Both the position numbers and the translations under genes were made by a program. Below are positions 5,978 through 14,228 of a stretch of DNA of 14,228 nucleotides, piece after piece. The notes under the pieces are model-generated. The model had not been told where the DNA came from. It made no database searches and saw nothing but the letters and a program-made list of their open reading frames with translations. The DNA is from a candidate division NPL-UPA2 bacterium. Its GTDB lineage: Bacteria; NPL-UPA2; JAGMAN01. The stretch lies in assembly GCA_021129695.1 (NCBI GenBank), contig JAJOKU010000118.1:1-14228 (forward strand), read 5' to 3'. Position 1 is the stretch's first letter, and each line of letters begins with the position of its first letter.

Positions 5978-6567
5978 TAGTTTGACCTCTCTTTACTTAT
6001 TCTATTCATCAATCCTAAGAGTAGCCCTAAACTGATGAAAGCCCCAGGAGGTAGGATCATTATTAGGAAAGGTAAATAACCTTCTCCGAAGAGGCTAACA
6101 CCAAGGATGGTGCCAGCGCCAAGGATTTCCCGAATGCTTCCCAGGACGATAAGGGAGAGGGTAAAACCGATTCCCATTCCCAGGCCATCCGCCAATGAAC
6201 TTAAAACTGGATTCCTGGAAGCAAAGGCTTCTGCCCGACCAAGAATAATGCAGTTGACCACAATAAGGGGAATGAAAAGCCCCAATTCCTTATGCAGCTC
6301 AAAGTAGAAACCCTCCATAATCATGTTCACTATGGACACGAAGGAGGCAATGATGACGATGAAAGAGGGAATTCTTACCCGGGGAGGAATGAATTTGCGA
6401 AGGGCTGATATAACTAAATTTGAGCAGACGAGCACCACCGTAGTTGCCAATCCCATTCCGACTCCATTTATGGCCTGGGTGGTAACGGCCAGGGTGGGGC
6501 AGATACCGAGGACCAGTCTGAAGATGGGATTCTCCTTCCAGAGCCCTTTCACAAGAAAATTCGTCAC
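5977..6567 (-). CDS. rnfE: Rnf complex integral membrane subunit RnfE
   Basis: Membrane subunit of the RnfE/NqrD family, 196 residues from the chosen start. Family marks are GLWKENPIFRLVLGICPTLAVTT near the N-terminus and LFIPLIVVNCIILGRAEAFA in the middle, with cysteines in GICPTLA and VVNCIIL. The open frame continues 41 codons further to 6690, but those codons translate repeat DNA and match nothing in RnfE proteins. I therefore start at GTG 6565-6567, which has GAGGAG 5 nt upstream (6572-6577) and places the conserved WKENP motif at a normal distance from the N-terminus. The ribosome binding site sits in the loop of a small hairpin. The gene is separated from rnfG by 205 bp of repeat-rich DNA, unlike all other rnf junctions. 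Confidence 0.92.
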   Translation of the reverse strand: MTNFLVKGLWKENPIFRLVLGICPTLAVTTQAINGVGMGLATTVVLVCSNLVISALRKFIPPRVRIPSFIVIIASFVSIVNMIMEGFYFELHKELGLFIPLIVVNCIILGRAEAFASRNPVLSSLADGLGMGIGFTLSLIVLGSIREILGAGTILGVSLFGEGYLPFLIMILPPGAFISLGLLLGLMNRISKERSN

Positions 6568-6586
6568 TTCGCTCCTCACCGCGAAG
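6567..6586 (-). promoter_or_regulatory. hairpin presenting the rnfE ribosome binding site
   Basis: CTTCGC (6567-6572) and GCGAAG (6581-6586) are perfectly complementary, with an 8-nt loop. On the minus strand the Shine-Dalgarno sequence GAGGAG lies in the loop and its last base enters the stem, and the stem's 3' side ends at the first base of the GTG start codon. This could tune rnfE translation. It decides the start in favour of 6567 over the longer frame. Confidence 0.5.
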
Positions 6587-9675: not shown

Positions 9676-9771
9676 TCTGCCCACTAACTCCTTATAATTC
9701 TAGTCATAGGATACCATGAAGCGTGAGAATTGGAAAGGAATTTTTTGAACCTGAGGGTGTTACTGCAAGTT
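9676..9771 (-). promoter_or_regulatory. probable rnf operon promoter region
   Basis: This 96-bp stretch between rnfC and the transposon end must hold whatever native promoter remains. I see AAGGAG upstream of the start and A/T-rich hexamers such as TAGAAT and TATCCT on the minus strand, but no convincing -35 partner at 16-18 bp. The promoter may therefore be weak, activator dependent, or partly replaced by the insertion. The call is by position only. Confidence 0.3.
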
Positions 9772-9830
9772 TGTTGTTAATGAGATTATTTGAGAATATA
9801 GGGCAGGTTTTAATCGGATTATTTGAGAAT
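9772..9830 (+). repeat. left transposon end: terminal repeat plus second binding-site motif
   Basis: The terminal copy at 9777-9797 is preceded by the tip TGTTG (9772-9776). A second copy lies at 9810-9830, 33 bp further in, and the two share 19 of 21 positions with the common core GATTATTTGAGAAT. The motifs point inward and are inverted relative to those at the right end. Repeated sites of this kind are bound by the transposase in Mu and Tn7; here that role is inferred. Confidence 0.88.
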
Positions 9831-10064
9831 GAGCTGAGTGCCAATTCCGCGCAAGGTCCCTTCGCACTTACCTGATTAATTCGTCCCCATAGAAACCCTT
9901 CCTAAGACTTCCCATTTGTGTTAAAAAAAGAAGACACTGCTGAGATTATAGCCAGAGCAGTGTCTTCAGGGAGAGGCACAGGAAATGGGTCTTCCCTTTT
10001 CTCATCCCTATTTTATTGTAAAGGTGTAAGAGGTTTTTGTCAATAGGAGGAGAAGCACAGATGA
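9831..10064. other. gene-free leader inside transposon left end
   Basis: This 234-bp stretch holds no open frame of note. It contains the 14-bp sequence TAATTCGTCCCCAT at 9877-9890 (also at 2187-2200), the minus-strand terminator at 9923-9967 and a weaker outer complementarity around it (AAGACTTCCCATTT near 9905-9917 with AAATGGGTCTT at 9983-9993). AGGAGG at 10045-10050 serves the first transposon gene. I see no clear -35/-10 pair. Confidence 0.5.
9923..9967 (-). terminator. intrinsic terminator facing out of the transposon
   Basis: GAAGACACTGCT (9930-9941) and AGCAGTGTCTTC (9956-9967) form a perfect 12-bp stem with a 14-nt loop. On the minus strand the hairpin is followed at once by seven T (complement of 9923-9929). 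On the plus strand no T-run follows. It would therefore stop transcripts running leftward out of the element toward rnfC, insulating the host operon. Confidence 0.8.
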
Positions 10065-10469
10065 ATGGTCAGAGAGATAAGATGCACTGTATGTGGTGGA
10101 GAAAAACCGCTTTTCAGATTAAAGTATTGTGATAAATGTGCTCTTCAGACAAAGCTCAAGCAGAGTCGAGACAAGAAGAGAGAGTACCGGCAGAGATGGA
10201 AAGATTACCATAGAGGAGAGCGTCTAGCATACAAGAAGGCATGGCGACAGAGGCGAGGATGGAACGACTACATGAGAAAGTATCGGGGCAGGAGCATAGA
10301 GAGAATAAGGGAGCAAAACCGTGCTGCATGGAGGAGGTACCGCGAGAGAGCCTCATTAAAACGGAATGAGTATATGAGGGACTACAGGGCGAGGAACGCC
10401 GAGAGGATAAGAGAACAGAACCGCGCTGCGGCGAGGAGGTATCGCCAGAGAGCGTCAGTAACTAAGTAA
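10065..10469 (+). CDS. Arg-rich zinc-finger protein, unknown function (transposon cargo)
   Basis: Protein of 134 residues that I cannot assign to a named family. A CxxC...CxxC zinc-binding pair (C7, C10, C22, C25) opens it, and the rest is extremely basic, rich in Arg, Tyr and Trp. Residues 69-102 and 103-134 are a duplication of a 34-residue unit with the shared core ERIREQNRAA; at DNA level the copies are 10269-10370 and 10371-10466. Similar Arg/Tyr-rich repeats occur in phage and HNH-associated proteins, but no HNH catalytic motif is present. It probably binds nucleic acid and may help assemble or regulate the transposition complex, or be passenger cargo. AGGAGG lies 14 nt before this ATG; an ATG 4 nt earlier opens only a short other frame. 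Confidence 0.7.
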   Translation: MVREIRCTVCGGEKPLFRLKYCDKCALQTKLKQSRDKKREYRQRWKDYHRGERLAYKKAWRQRRGWNDYMRKYRGRSIERIREQNRAAWRRYRERASLKRNEYMRDYRARNAERIREQNRAAARRYRQRASVTK

Positions 10470-10518
10470 AACGGAGAATTCCTTCCATAGCTTGACAGCC
10501 TGATGTAGAATTGTAAAA

Positions 10519-11469
10519 ATGATGGAAACCGGAATACGATTATCTAAAGTCGTAGATTTTGCCGGCATCAGAAATGTCCACGAGGAGAATTTCAATCAGG
10601 TTGGAACCCACCGGTTAGTAGGAGCACGCCTGGTAACGAGCCAGAGCATAGAAGAGATGGCCATGTCTATAGAAGCCGAAGGTCTCCACCATCCAATTTT
10701 GGTGAGAGAACGCGGGGAGGAATTTGAGATAATTTCAGGGCACTTACGTAAAGAGGCATTTCTAAAACTGAACCGCTCAGAGATTGAAGGTAGAGTTATT
10801 AACGTCGCTGATGTAGAAGCAAAGGCCATGCTAATTACCACCAACAGGAACCAGCATCCTTTAAGTGCGATAGAAGAAGCCTGGGTGGTAGAGGATCTGA
10901 TTACAAAAGAGAGGGTTAGCCTTAGGGAATGCGCAAGGCTACTTAAAGTATCAGCAAGCTGGGTCTGCCACAGGAGAAGCCTTGCCAGGGAGTTAATTAA
11001 GAGCGTGCAAGTTGATGTATTGCTAGGACTTATGTCAGCAAAGGCAGCTATAGCAATAGCAAGTGTTCACGCGCGTGAACAGTCAAGAGTGGCAGAATTA
11101 ACTAAGGAGAGAAATTTGAGCCTGCGCGAGGTGGAAGATCTAGTCCGGATAATGAGAAGGGATGACTTAAGTGATGAGGTAAAGAATCTGGCTTTGGATG
11201 ATCCCAGGGAGGTAATTAAAGCTGTAAGGGAAAGGAAAAGGGTTATTCATAAGCCGACACAGTTAAGCTATTTCGCCACCAACTTCAAGACTGAACTTGA
11301 CAGATTAGGAGAAAGCCTTGTTGAGGTAAGACATCGGTTAAGTCGAGATTATCCAAAGTTTAGCTCAAAAGATAAGGAAGTTCTGAAGAAGGATATATTT
11401 TTAACCAAAAGCAGAGTTGAGTTTCTACGCAGTGAATTGGAGGGTGTAGATGGGCAAGAATTTAACTAA
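10519..11469 (+). CDS. ParB/Spo0J-like DNA-binding protein of the transposon
   Basis: Protein of 316 residues with a ParB N-terminal domain at about residues 38-121. The pattern SIEEMAMSIEAEGLHHPI and the box SGHLRKEA (73-80) correspond to the GxRRxxA CTP-binding box, here altered to GHLRKEA. TNRNQHPLSAIEEA (108-121) corresponds to the second ParB box. A helix-turn-helix follows at about 132-156 (SLRECARLLKVSASWVCHRRSLA). The C-terminal 70 residues look helical and charged. ParB proteins are sequence-specific clamps; here, next to a transposase, the likely target is the repeated motif at the transposon ends, which is inference. The gene overlaps the transposase start by 20 nt, indicating coupled expression. 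No ribosome binding site precedes ATG 10519, so the start is uncertain. There is no ParA in the window, which argues against a plain partition role. Confidence 0.83.
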   Translation: MMETGIRLSKVVDFAGIRNVHEENFNQVGTHRLVGARLVTSQSIEEMAMSIEAEGLHHPILVRERGEEFEIISGHLRKEAFLKLNRSEIEGRVINVADVEAKAMLITTNRNQHPLSAIEEAWVVEDLITKERVSLRECARLLKVSASWVCHRRSLARELIKSVQVDVLLGLMSAKAAIAIASVHAREQSRVAELTKERNLSLREVEDLVRIMRRDDLSDEVKNLALDDPREVIKAVRERKRVIHKPTQLSYFATNFKTELDRLGESLVEVRHRLSRDYPKFSSKDKEVLKKDIFLTKSRVEFLRSELEGVDGQEFN

Positions 11470-12679
11470 GGAACAAAGAGAAGAAATAGCCAGAGCAAAG
11501 TTCAAGATAATTGCACCGCTTTTAAGAACTAGCGGTGAGGAAAGGGCTTCTCTAATAAAGGAGATAAGTAAGGTTCCTCATGATATACCATTTTCTAAGA
11601 AAAAGGAGATATCCGTTGCAACTTTTTACCGGTGGATAGAAGACTTTGAGAAAGGTGGAGGAGTAGCCGCTCTTATGAAAAAGGAGAGATCTGATAAAGG
11701 CAAGAGCCGAGTTATGGATGAGATACTCCTATCTGAACTGAAGGATTTAAAGAAGGAGTTGCCAAGGAGAAGTGTGAGAAAGCTAATCAGGATGGTGGAA
11801 CTCGGTCGAGATCTCAAAGAAGGACTCATAAAAGAGCCGACATTATCGAGGATTTTGAGAGAACAAGGCTATACTAGATGGGTACTGAGTTCAAAGCCAA
11901 AGAAGGCGAGGAAGAAATGGCAAAGAGCACTCCCAAATTCACTCTGGATGGGCGACTTCATGACCGCAGATATCTGGTTACCTCACCCTGAAGATGGAGG
12001 GAAAATAAAGCAATTGCATTTTTGTGGCTACCTTGATGACAGGTCAAGGCTCTGCCCACACGGGGAATTCTTCTTTAACGAGAAGCTACCCTGTTTAGAG
12101 ATAACCTTTAAGAAGGCCCTCTCCAAGAGAGGAATTCCAGATGAAGTCTACTATGATGGAGGAAAGACTTTCCAATCAGATCAGATGAAGGCTATCTGTT
12201 ATGAGCTGGGAATAAACCCCATAGACGCTCATTCTGCAGAATCAAGGGGCAAGATAGAGAAATTCATCCAGTTTGTCCAAACTGATTTCATTGCTGAGAT
12301 AGTCCATGCTGGGGTAAAAACACTTGCAGAGGTAAACACACGATTCCTATTCTGGTTAGAGCAGGACTACCATAAGAAGGTTAATCGGGAGATAGGTGAG
12401 TGCCCTATAGATGCATGGAATGAGATTAAAAACATAAGAACAGTCACTCCTGAGAAATTAGAACAGGTATTTTTGTGGAGAGATGAAAGGAAAGTTTCCC
12501 CAACCCGCCTTATCTCTAACGATGGCAATAGCTATGAAACCAAGCCAGAGTTGGCAAACAAGAAAGTGCACATTAGATTCAATCCATTCGATTATCGAGG
12601 TTATATGTCTACCTTAACGGGGAATTTCATTCAGAGGCTAAACCTTTTGAACTCGTATCTCAGCAGGATAAAAGGGTAA
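11450..12679 (+). CDS. DDE transposase, Mu/TnsB/TniA type (frameshifted, catalytic part)
   Basis: An RNase H-fold transposase. N-terminal DNA-binding helices include ISVATFYRWIEDF at about residues 54-66. The catalytic core carries D169 (LWMGDFM), D236 (VYYDGGK) and E270 (SRGKIEKF), with 33 residues between the last two, as in rve/D35E enzymes. The acidic triad is intact. The frame stays family-like to NPFD (residues 378-381), then ends in unrelated residues and a stop. The downstream frame continues LSRLYVYLNGEF, exactly the sequence expected next in this family, so one base is missing near 12592. Restoring it gives 571 residues ending at 13164. A ribosome binding site GGAGGG lies before ATG 11450. 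It should cut and join the transposon ends together with the ATPase encoded downstream. Its activity without the C-terminal part is doubtful. Confidence 0.88.
   Translation: MGKNLTKEQREEIARAKFKIIAPLLRTSGEERASLIKEISKVPHDIPFSKKKEISVATFYRWIEDFEKGGGVAALMKKERSDKGKSRVMDEILLSELKDLKKELPRRSVRKLIRMVELGRDLKEGLIKEPTLSRILREQGYTRWVLSSKPKKARKKWQRALPNSLWMGDFMTADIWLPHPEDGGKIKQLHFCGYLDDRSRLCPHGEFFFNEKLPCLEITFKKALSKRGIPDEVYYDGGKTFQSDQMKAICYELGINPIDAHSAESRGKIEKFIQFVQTDFIAEIVHAGVKTLAEVNTRFLFWLEQDYHKKVNREIGECPIDAWNEIKNIRTVTPEKLEQVFLWRDERKVSPTRLISNDGNSYETKPELANKKVHIRFNPFDYRGYMSTLTGNFIQRLNLLNSYLSRIKG
12577..12676 (+). other. frameshift window joining two parts of the transposase
   Basis: The second frame opens after a stop at 12574-12576, and the first closes at 12677-12679, so the shift must lie between. 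The best joint is after codon 381 (GAT, 12590-12592): adding one T there turns the reading into FDLSRLYVYLNGEF, typical of this transposase family. No classic slippery heptamer (such as A AAA AAG) is present, which favours mutation or sequence error over programmed -1 frameshifting. Confidence 0.75.
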
Positions 12680-12786
12680 GATATAAGAAGGAACCAAAGC
12701 CAAAACCAGATGAAGAATTTAGGAGCAGTATAAGTTACTTCTCTGCTCTGGAAAAGAGAGCAAAGGAAAGCAAGCCTCATCAACCT

Positions 12787-13164
12787 GTGATCCCGCTTAT
12801 TAACGAAGAGAAAAAAGAGCCTGTGAGAGAGAAACAGGAAGAGTTTCCGCTAAAGTTCAGTAAGGGAGAATTCTTTGAAGAACTAACCAACCACCTTGGC
12901 TGTTTAGGTAGAGGGGAGAGAAGAAAGGTGAATGTAGTCTGGAGTGAAGCCGGTCCATTTGATGGGAAACTTACCAGAGAGGCAATAGAACGTAGTGTAA
13001 AGTTTAAGGGAAGTAGCCAGCATATCTCTTACTACTTAGAGTCGATCCGCAGAGAGCACATGAGGAGGGCAAGTGAGATGGAGCTTTATCCAAAGAAGCA
13101 TAACCAGGTAATGAAGGTTAGAAAGATACTCGATGAATTGAAAGAAAAGATGTCTATGAGATAG
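12787..13164 (+). CDS. C-terminal part of the transposase, now in another frame
   Basis: Read alone, this is a 125-residue frame with a GTG start, but the frame is open upstream to 12577 and that upstream part (LYVYLNGEF, then a Lys/Pro-rich linker) continues the transposase. I therefore see it as the C-terminal domain of the transposase, not a separate gene. The segment FSKGEFFEELTNHLG with GPFDGK and HISYYLESIRREH forms a helical domain of the kind that follows the beta-barrel in Mu/Tn552-type transposases, where the C-terminus contacts the AAA ATPase. The ATPase gene starts 3 nt after the stop. No ribosome binding site precedes GTG 12787. Confidence 0.68.
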   Translation: MIPLINEEKKEPVREKQEEFPLKFSKGEFFEELTNHLGCLGRGERRKVNVVWSEAGPFDGKLTREAIERSVKFKGSSQHISYYLESIRREHMRRASEMELYPKKHNQVMKVRKILDELKEKMSMR

Positions 13165-13167
13165 GGC

Positions 13168-13965
13168 ATGTATACCAAACACTTTAAGCTAAGAGAGCAA
13201 CCTTTCTTCAAGGTTCTTGAACCTAAGTTCTTATTTAACTCATCTGGGCATAAGGAGCTTTTAGCAAGGCTCCATTTCTCGCTTATGGAAAAGGAGATGG
13301 CCCTGGTTAGTGGAGAGATAGGTTCCGGAAAAAGCACCAGCGTCATAGAATTTATGAGGCAGCTCAGGGGAAAAACTAAAGTGGCTTATATTGTTAATCC
13401 GAAACTATGCAATAGAGATCTCCTGAGTGAGATAATCCAACAGCTGGGTAATGAGGAGCCAAGATGGTTTAAAAGGAATCTACTTGATCAACTAAATAAA
13501 GTTATCCTGCGCTGTTATGATGAGCAAATGAAAGAGCCAGTTCTTATCATAGATGAGGCACAGTTACTGGATAGAGATACCTTAGAAGATATTAGGTTGC
13601 TTACCAACTACACAAACCCTGATAAGAAGCTACTTACCATAATTCTTATTGGTCAACCTGAGCTGAGAAGAAGGTTATCCTTGGACACATATGAGGCTTT
13701 CAATCAACGGATAGGAGTAAAATATCACTTTTATGGTCTGGAAAGGAAAGAAACTGTAGATTACGTCCTCCATCGGATTAAAGCTGCCGGCGGTGATGGA
13801 GATATCTTCTCCCAGGGAGCCTTAGAAAATATCTACGACCTCTCAAAAGGAATACTTCGCAAGATAAATAAGCTTGCCTCTACCAGCCTCCTTCATGGAT
13901 TCCTGCTTAAGAAGACTCGCATCGATGAGGCCATGGTTGCCGATGCTTCCAGGGAAATAGAATAA
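13168..13965 (+). CDS. ExeA/TnsC-like AAA ATPase of the transposon
   Basis: ATPase of 265 residues, the usual size of the family. The opening MYTKHFKLREQPFF is characteristic of ExeA-family proteins. Walker A is GEIGSGKS (49-56) and Walker B is VLIIDE (125-130) followed by AQLL; the arginine-rich sensor region GQPELRRRL lies at about 171-179. In Mu, Tn5053 and Tn7 the equivalent protein (MuB, TniB, TnsC) binds DNA as ATP-dependent filaments or rings, selects the target and activates the transposase. The ATG follows the transposase C-terminal frame by 3 nt, so the two are translated together. GspA/ExeA secretion ATPases are homologous, but the neighbours decide for transposition. All motifs are intact, unlike the transposase. 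Confidence 0.92.
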   Translation: MYTKHFKLREQPFFKVLEPKFLFNSSGHKELLARLHFSLMEKEMALVSGEIGSGKSTSVIEFMRQLRGKTKVAYIVNPKLCNRDLLSEIIQQLGNEEPRWFKRNLLDQLNKVILRCYDEQMKEPVLIIDEAQLLDRDTLEDIRLLTNYTNPDKKLLTIILIGQPELRRRLSLDTYEAFNQRIGVKYHFYGLERKETVDYVLHRIKAAGGDGDIFSQGALENIYDLSKGILRKINKLASTSLLHGFLLKKTRIDEAMVADASREIE

Positions 13966-13978
13966 CCCTACCCAAGAC

Positions 13979-13987
13979 TTATCCACA
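13979..13987 (+). promoter_or_regulatory. consensus DnaA box inside transposon right end
   Basis: TTATCCACA is an exact match to the bacterial DnaA box. It lies 14 bp after the ATPase stop codon and 15 bp before the innermost end motif. Only one box is present, so this is not an origin. Host DnaA binding near a transposon end is known for IS50/Tn5; a similar link here is inference. Confidence 0.4.
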
Positions 13988-14001
13988 GTTCACCTGGTAG
14001 C

Positions 14002-14084
14002 ATTCTCAAATAATGTGATAAAAAATGCATCCTCATTCTCAAATAATCTGATAAATTTATTCTCAAATAATCTGATTTACAACA
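14002..14084 (-). repeat. right transposon end: three binding-site motifs and terminal repeat
   Basis: Copies of the 21-bp motif with core ATTCTCAAATAAT lie at 14002-14022, 14035-14055 and 14059-14079, starts 33 and 24 bp apart, all in inverted orientation to the left end. The outer copy is followed by the tip CAACA (14080-14084), the complement of the left tip TGTTG. The inner copy reads AATGTGAT where the others read AATCTGAT. Unequal numbers of sites at the two ends recall Tn7 and Mu. Confidence 0.88.
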
Positions 14085-14095
14085 CGTTGCCTTCC

Positions 14096-14228
14096 GTGAC
14101 GCAGGAAAGTCTTCGTCGCAGGGCAGTCCAAGCAGTTCAAGAATGCAAGACACAAGTGGAAGTAGCGCGAATGTTCGCGGTTACACGCCGGGCTATTGGC
14201 AAGTGGGTCAAAACCTATCGCGAGGATG
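14096..14228 (+). CDS. partial helix-turn-helix transposase, N-terminal part
   Basis: The frame opens with GTG at 14096 and is still open at the window edge, giving 44 residues that begin MTQESLRRRAVQAVQEC. TQVEVARMFAVTRRAIGKWVKTY is a clear helix-turn-helix of the type found at the N-terminus of IS630-like and related transposases. No ribosome binding site is visible, because only 11 bp separate GTG from the transposon tip; the larger element may have inserted in its leader. It could also be a remnant. The family beyond helix-turn-helix transposase is not certain from so short a piece. Confidence 0.65.
   Translation, partial: MTQESLRRRAVQAVQECKTQVEVARMFAVTRRAIGKWVKTYRED

Follow-up and report, generated by a model that had tools for sequence, protein, structure and literature searches.

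Transposons of the TnsB/TnsC type differ chiefly in the accessory protein that directs the ATPase. Tn7-like elements and CRISPR-associated transposons (CAST) combine TnsB and TnsC with TniQ, and TniQ/TnsD is described as ubiquitous within the Tn7 branch (PMC10293859). Other described systems are the MuA–MuB pair of Mu, the IstA–IstB pair of IS21 and, for the ParB_N plus helix-turn-helix (HTH) fold, the proteins ParB, Noc and KorB. Here we analyzed a 14,228-nucleotide (nt) stretch of DNA, referred to as the window, which is one entire contig (JAJOKU010000118.1) of a fragmented metagenome-assembled genome (MAG) from a candidate division NPL-UPA2 bacterium (GCA_021129695.1; 167 contigs, 69.57% complete). 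It carries a transposon at positions 9772–14084 in which a ParB-like gene lies directly before the transposase and ATPase genes. The element resembles Tn7-like and CAST systems in its TnsB-like transposase, its TnsC-like ATPase and the several motif copies at each end. It differs from them in having a ParB-like protein, and a Pfam scan (E up to 1) of its five reading frames detected neither TniQ nor TnsA, so that it falls outside the Tn7-like elements, for which TniQ/TnsD is needed. With Mu and IS21 it shares a MuA-type C-terminal domain, and MuB is the sole sequence match of its ATPase in the PDB; it differs from both in the extra ParB-like gene, and the IS21 transposase model NF033546 reaches only 30 bits against a cut-off of 160, which places the element outside IS21. 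The accessory protein has the ParB_N and HTH fold of ParB, Noc and KorB but differs from them in three respects: the element contains no ParA, GHxR replaces GERR in all 19 family members, and its gene sits within a transposition operon. The transposon itself is of a known kind; the ParB-like accessory in the place of a protein designated DUF6431 makes it a variant.

Organization of the transposon

The element is bounded by 27-nt terminal inverted repeats at 9772–9798 (plus strand) and 14058–14084 (minus strand), which are 93% complementary and include the outermost copies of an 18-nt end motif. Repeat and motif searches located five copies of this motif, two on the left and three on the right (chance mean, 0.08; at least five in none of 200 shuffles). 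The second left copy, at 9810–9833 on the plus strand, is a probable transposase-binding site; the middle and innermost right copies occupy 14034–14055 and 14001–14022 on the minus strand. Between the ends lie, all on the plus strand, a small open reading frame (ORF), the ParB-like gene (10519–11469), the transposase and the ATPase. The first-pass annotation, made from the sequence alone, had placed the last three within one set of terminal repeats, which the coordinates bear out.

The plus-strand frame at 11450–12679 (409 residues) is the first of the two frames of a DDE transposase and includes the complete triad of D169, D236 and E270. The Pfam score for the transposase is 28.3 bits for rve, below the cut-off of 32.6, and 23.5 bits for Mu-transpos_C, above the cut-off of 21.7. 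The family profile matches TnsB at 8.7e-22, and the triad together with the Mu C-terminal domain assigns the predicted protein to the TnsB/MuA type. Its C-terminal remainder, recognized by comparison with relatives, is out of frame at 12577–13164 (plus strand). Since the closest relatives (P0040–P0042) are each one uninterrupted protein of 571 residues, and since a profile search matches both window frames as two pieces of a single protein, the transposase is frameshifted near position 12,590, either genuinely or through an error of assembly. As a consequence, the window copy is probably damaged and not active by itself. A programmed frameshift was also considered and is disfavoured, because P0040–P0042 are single frames. 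The frameshift also qualifies the earlier claim that the ATPase gene follows the transposase after 3 nt: this spacing holds from the 12577–13164 frame but not from the frame that starts at 11450, which stops at 12679. The ATPase (13168–13965, plus strand) retains the Walker A and B motifs and matches AAA_22 with 83.5 bits, TnsC_0_V-K at 9e-7 and MuB at 0.0026, and its sequence accordingly indicates an AAA ATPase of the TnsC/MuB/ExeA type.

The ParB-like gene and its association with the transposase

The ParB-like protein matches ParB_N (28.7 bits) and HTH_ParB (25.1 bits), both above the Pfam cut-offs. An AlphaFold2 model with a mean predicted local distance difference test (pLDDT) score of 85.3 finds Noc, ParB and KorB as structural matches and predicts a two-helix hairpin as the C-terminal part (residues 250–310). 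These domains and the predicted fold assign the protein to the ParB/Noc superfamily, in agreement with the initial reading. Protein searches yielded 19 full-length family members (P0001–P0018 and P0159) with 43–80% identity; the searches are leaky, a later one having missed 7 of the first 22 sequences of an earlier one. The family stands clearly apart from ordinary ParB proteins. Across 386 genomes, its profile scores the window protein at 488.9 bits versus 99.2 bits for the best ordinary ParB, and matches are present in 49 genomes at 1e-22.

The 3' end of the ParB-like gene (11469) overlaps the transposase start (11450) by 20 nt, and this arrangement recurs in the family. In 18 of the 19 members the C-terminus back-translates in the +1 frame to M-[GS]-[KR]-N-L-T, which is the start of the transposases in the ParB-linked clade; the exception, P0012, ends after two residues of the overlap pattern. 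The pattern was written after the sequences had been seen, and 64 other sequences were read for comparison: P0019, a fragment of the ParB family, reads six pattern residues, and the remaining 63, which constitute the control, read at most three. Furthermore, four ParB/DDE pairs lie on contigs identical in size and source, and a transposase tree with 57 sequences places all five ParB-linked ones in a single clade of 11 (support 100/100). On the strength of the overlap trace, the four shared-contig pairs and the single transposase clade, these sequences indicate that the ParB-like gene belongs permanently to the transposition module.

The first-pass annotation had called a ParB-like partner without ParA unusual and had suggested testing whether the ParB, DDE and ExeA genes stay together; for the ParB and DDE genes these data support it. 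The element's reading frames contain no ParA in the Pfam scan and thus lack the ParA partner of a ParABS system. None of the few readable family contexts shows ParA, and the alternative that the gene occurs mainly elsewhere with ParA was not observed. A scan of viral contigs with the single ParB-like protein gave no relative, and a scan with the ParB profile gave 22 loci, none with the family DDE or ATPase in the examined stretch. The plasmid scan returned two weak ParB matches.

Related transposons carry DUF6431 in the accessory slot

A DDE profile scan of 84,980 species genomes identified 47 related loci, to which one viral contig and three plasmid loci were added, giving 51. A gene for a DUF6431-like zinc-ribbon protein lies directly upstream of the transposase in 41 of them and an ATPase is present in 46, while the ParB profile has no match among the 51. 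Of the 41 loci, 18 supplied the sequences for the DUF6431 profile and so match by construction, and six related loci are near copies within one Cytobacillus genome. Among the ten loci that do not match DUF6431, four (L043, L044, L048 and L051) start inside the transposase and one (L047) ends inside it; the other five are L033, L036, L045, L046 and L050. The previous supposition that known relatives use TniQ, TnsD/E or Mu-specific helpers therefore does not describe the nearest relatives, which carry DUF6431. Nor do they amount to homologous transposons that simply lack the ParB-like gene: the 51 ParB-less transposases are more distant, mostly with 28–36% identity, and DUF6431 fills the slot in the 41 loci. 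In the tree, all 23 DUF6431-linked sequences lie outside the ParB-linked clade, and some long branches occur elsewhere. No window frame of at least 50 residues matches DUF6431, so the element does not belong to the DUF6431 group. Because DUF6431 holds the slot in 41 of the 51 loci and none of these matches the ParB profile, ParB appears, from these sequences, to stand in for another accessory protein in the clade of the window. Most simply, the sequence data would be explained if ParB had replaced DUF6431 once, in the common ancestor of the clade.

The DUF6431 transposons, such as those of Desulfosporosinus (L018), Bacillaceae (L024) and Paenibacillaceae (L034), have DDE transposase and ATPase genes that are homologous to those of the window element and arranged alike, with one accessory gene upstream. 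They differ in that the accessory is a zinc-ribbon protein without a ParB fold and the transposase has 448–534 residues (complete frames in the tree) versus 571. Their ends also look unlike those of the window element, a comparison made with no chance control. The species-genome scan found no close relative of the window transposase, and the clade is therefore known here from the window MAG and from metagenome proteins. Within the phylum of the window, the DDE was found in one of nine genomes, the window's own; the viral and phage collections contained one relative and one weak match.

DUF6431 typically supplies the third gene in a DDE plus ATPase transposon group that is widespread (L005–L052 and L077–L079) and includes a locus in a Lokiarchaeota MAG (a weak match, E 5e-5). 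A literature search for DUF6431 by name returned a single paper, which mentions it once; as far as that search shows, its presence in 41 of 51 loci marks it as a comparable accessory that has received no study. A TniQ-like fold was considered for DUF6431 and rejected: its model has a mean pLDDT of 80.6 and no PDB match at E ≤ 0.001, the best being the ISCth4 transposase at 0.049. A Rhodococcus plasmid locus (L079) has an annotated ParB N-terminal-domain protein beside the transposon, but this protein lies outside the best inverted repeats and is unmatched by the family profile, and the transposon itself has DUF6431.

Altered nucleotide-binding motifs

The glutamate of the GERR motif corresponds to E93 of M. 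xanthus ParB, since 7o0n, the structure with the E93A change, and 7bnk have different residues at this alignment position. A change of E93 or Q52 in that protein blocks the hydrolysis of cytidine triphosphate (CTP) (PMC9178275). All 19 family members read GHxR at this motif, and the family thus lacks the glutamate expected of a CTP-hydrolysing ParB. The glutamate of ENxQR is replaced by threonine in 18 members and by serine in one, its asparagine being retained, and the glutamine of GxxQP is changed to histidine in 18 and to tyrosine in one. A hydrolysis-deficient ParB bound to CTP reportedly still closes on parS (PMC12462528). Since the ParB fold is also able to bind ATP or GTP, and a section heading of the same paper states that the nucleotide is not reliably predictable from sequence (PMC12704722), any nucleotide ligand of the ParB-like protein may be CTP or another. 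A second ParB-like group (P0022 and P0160–P0163; about 33–36% identity over half of the query, contigs of up to 7489 bases) likewise has GHxR instead of GERR, and SN instead of EN.

A candidate loading site within the ParB-like gene

An 18-bp perfect palindrome, TGTTCACGCGCGTGAACA, is located at 11064–11081 inside the ParB-like gene, at the VHAREQ codons, and is the only one of this length in the window. The sequence resembles the parS consensus and represents a candidate loading site. The canonical parS, on this consensus with at most one mismatch, has no match in the genome of the window, which to that extent lacks the parS of a ParABS system; three related genomes (G002, G003 and G007) have such a match on the contig of their chromosomal parB. 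When the ParB protein was recoded 4000 times with the codon usage of the element, at least one 18-bp palindrome arose in 22 recodings, and in 58 when all five reading frames were considered. For its alanine and arginine, the palindrome uses the least frequent codon of each set. Across the 19 members, the residues over the site are H-A-R in 15, H-T-C in three and H-A-S in one, followed by E or G and then by an invariant Q. These residue pairs are exactly those compatible with a palindrome, one member excepted, and in the H-T-C members the implied palindrome core is CACACGTGTG.

Proposed role of the ParB-like protein

Sequence comparison establishes the module, its accessory slot, the transposase clade, the gene overlap and the changed motifs; the role of the protein is inferred from them. 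In the explanation we consider best, the core of this DDE transposon consists of a transposase of the TnsB/MuA type, an AAA ATPase of the TnsC/MuB type and a DNA-binding protein as accessory. We give roughly even weight for and against the ParB-like protein being a clamp on DNA that serves as this accessory, loads within the element encoding it and works there in cis. The protein, made together with the transposase through the overlapping genes, would bind the parS-like palindrome within its own gene, close around or stay on the element DNA, perhaps as a long-lived clamp, and work in cis with the ATPase and transposase of that element. It might assist in assembling the ends, or the ATPase, on the correct DNA, or it might prevent the ATPase from targeting the element. 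Given the replaced CTP-hydrolysis glutamate, one would expect any clamp either to persist for long or to rely on a different nucleotide. A more specific version, which we put forward tentatively and regard as rather improbable, is that a hydrolysis-poor ParB-type clamp loads at the site, slides and marks the transposon in cis, telling the ATPase what is self and thereby providing target immunity or end pairing.

Several observations weigh against the association or the clamp. Five of the six unlinked members of the DDE clade (P0043 and P0046–P0049; contigs of 4.3–5.5 kb) have no ParB match of equal contig size, and the ParB contigs of P0008 (size 3368) and P0013 (size 6707) match no listed DDE. 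Clamp closing requires nucleotide binding, which is only putative here, and GHxR in all 19 sequences speaks against a textbook ParB clamp. Read by eye from the alignment, the parS-contacting residues listed for ParB/Noc (PMC7383237) are mostly changed, and a site other than canonical parS is therefore expected. The palindrome was found post hoc and is read in one DNA sequence only, its relatives being known as proteins; the three H-T-C members possibly reflect one event, and a second protein window also permits a palindrome in 18 of the 19 sequences. There is no excess of 14-bp palindromes (4 versus 0–6 in ten shuffles) or of 16-bp one-mismatch palindromes (12 versus 3–13 in shuffles), and the stretch is also readable as a minus-strand hairpin.

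Target selection and autoregulation are live rivals of the cis-acting clamp. As a target selector like TniQ/TnsD or TnsF, the protein would bind target DNA and pass it to the ATPase. This possibility, which we consider doubtful, accords with the gene occupying the single accessory slot beside a TnsB/TnsC-type pair, with the modular swapping of target selectors in Tn7-like elements (PMC10293859) and with an HTH that differs by eye from parS-type readers and could read another target; however, the sole candidate site lies in the element, no similar site (at most three mismatches) occurs elsewhere in the genome of the window (69.57% complete) or in two same-genus genomes, and the one known insertion, upstream of rnfC and adjoining an IS630-type gene, allows no target preference to be read. 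Alternatively, a KorB- or VirB-like autoregulator would control how the operon is transcribed and thereby the copy number, which we judge unlikely. KorB is the top structural neighbour of the predicted model by Z, tied with Noc within 1, ParB-type regulators such as VirB exist, silencing could spread from a site within the gene, and a promoter-like match at 10492–10520 (10 of 12 positions) immediately precedes the ParB start. Such matches, however, are at chance level (7 found versus 7.1 expected), and the transposase overlap and the replacement of DUF6431 fit a role in transposition equally well or better. That the gene takes no part in transposition, being either cargo or a partition gene that was captured, is very improbable: orphan ParB-fold proteins are common on mobile elements (PMC12704722), but the overlap readable in 18 of 19 members, the single transposase clade and the loss of the usual accessory gene oppose it.

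With its changed nucleotide motifs and its own candidate site, a ParB-like protein in the accessory slot would constitute a new accessory-factor class and give the ParB fold a new function. Among the literature matches listed, no description of a ParB-like accessory of such a transposon was found, nor, should the clamp mark self, of this use of the ParB fold in transposition; the word stem transpos- is absent from the main text of PMC12704722, which deals with ParB-fold nucleotides.

Flanking DNA and other features

The small ORF of the element (10065–10469, plus strand; 134 residues) has a cysteine-rich start with CxxC pairs and a duplicated 34-residue basic repeat. It has no match in Pfam or PADLOC and is probably cargo. 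Within the left part of the element, a perfect 12-bp inverted repeat with a 14-nt gap (9930–9967), followed by a T run on the minus strand, is terminator-like for leftward transcription leaving the element.

No target-site duplication is visible at the element ends, where the flanks read AAGTT and CGTTG, and the right end with its flank has no further copy in the genome of the window or in four related genomes. Upstream of rnfC, the same-genus genomes G001 and G002 are without the element; similarity to them stops short of the element, at 9745 and 9743 respectively, and no exact empty site is therefore readable. The contig stops 144 bases beyond the right end. A frame with an HTH_28 match, possibly an IS630-type transposase, occupies 14015–14228 on the right and is cut by the contig end. 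Taken with the missing target-site duplication, this frame may point to one insertion nested in another or to contigs wrongly joined at a repeat.

The host DNA left of 9684 encodes an rnf-type operon, as read from its reading frames. Upstream of rnfC, a 43-nt stretch at 9707–9749 recurs at 84–88% identity elsewhere in the G001 and G003 genomes and is possibly a repeat or a shared regulatory element. The host part of the window also contains a 27-nt inverted repeat (96%) whose arms, at 27–53 and 6552–6578, lie 6.5 kb apart.

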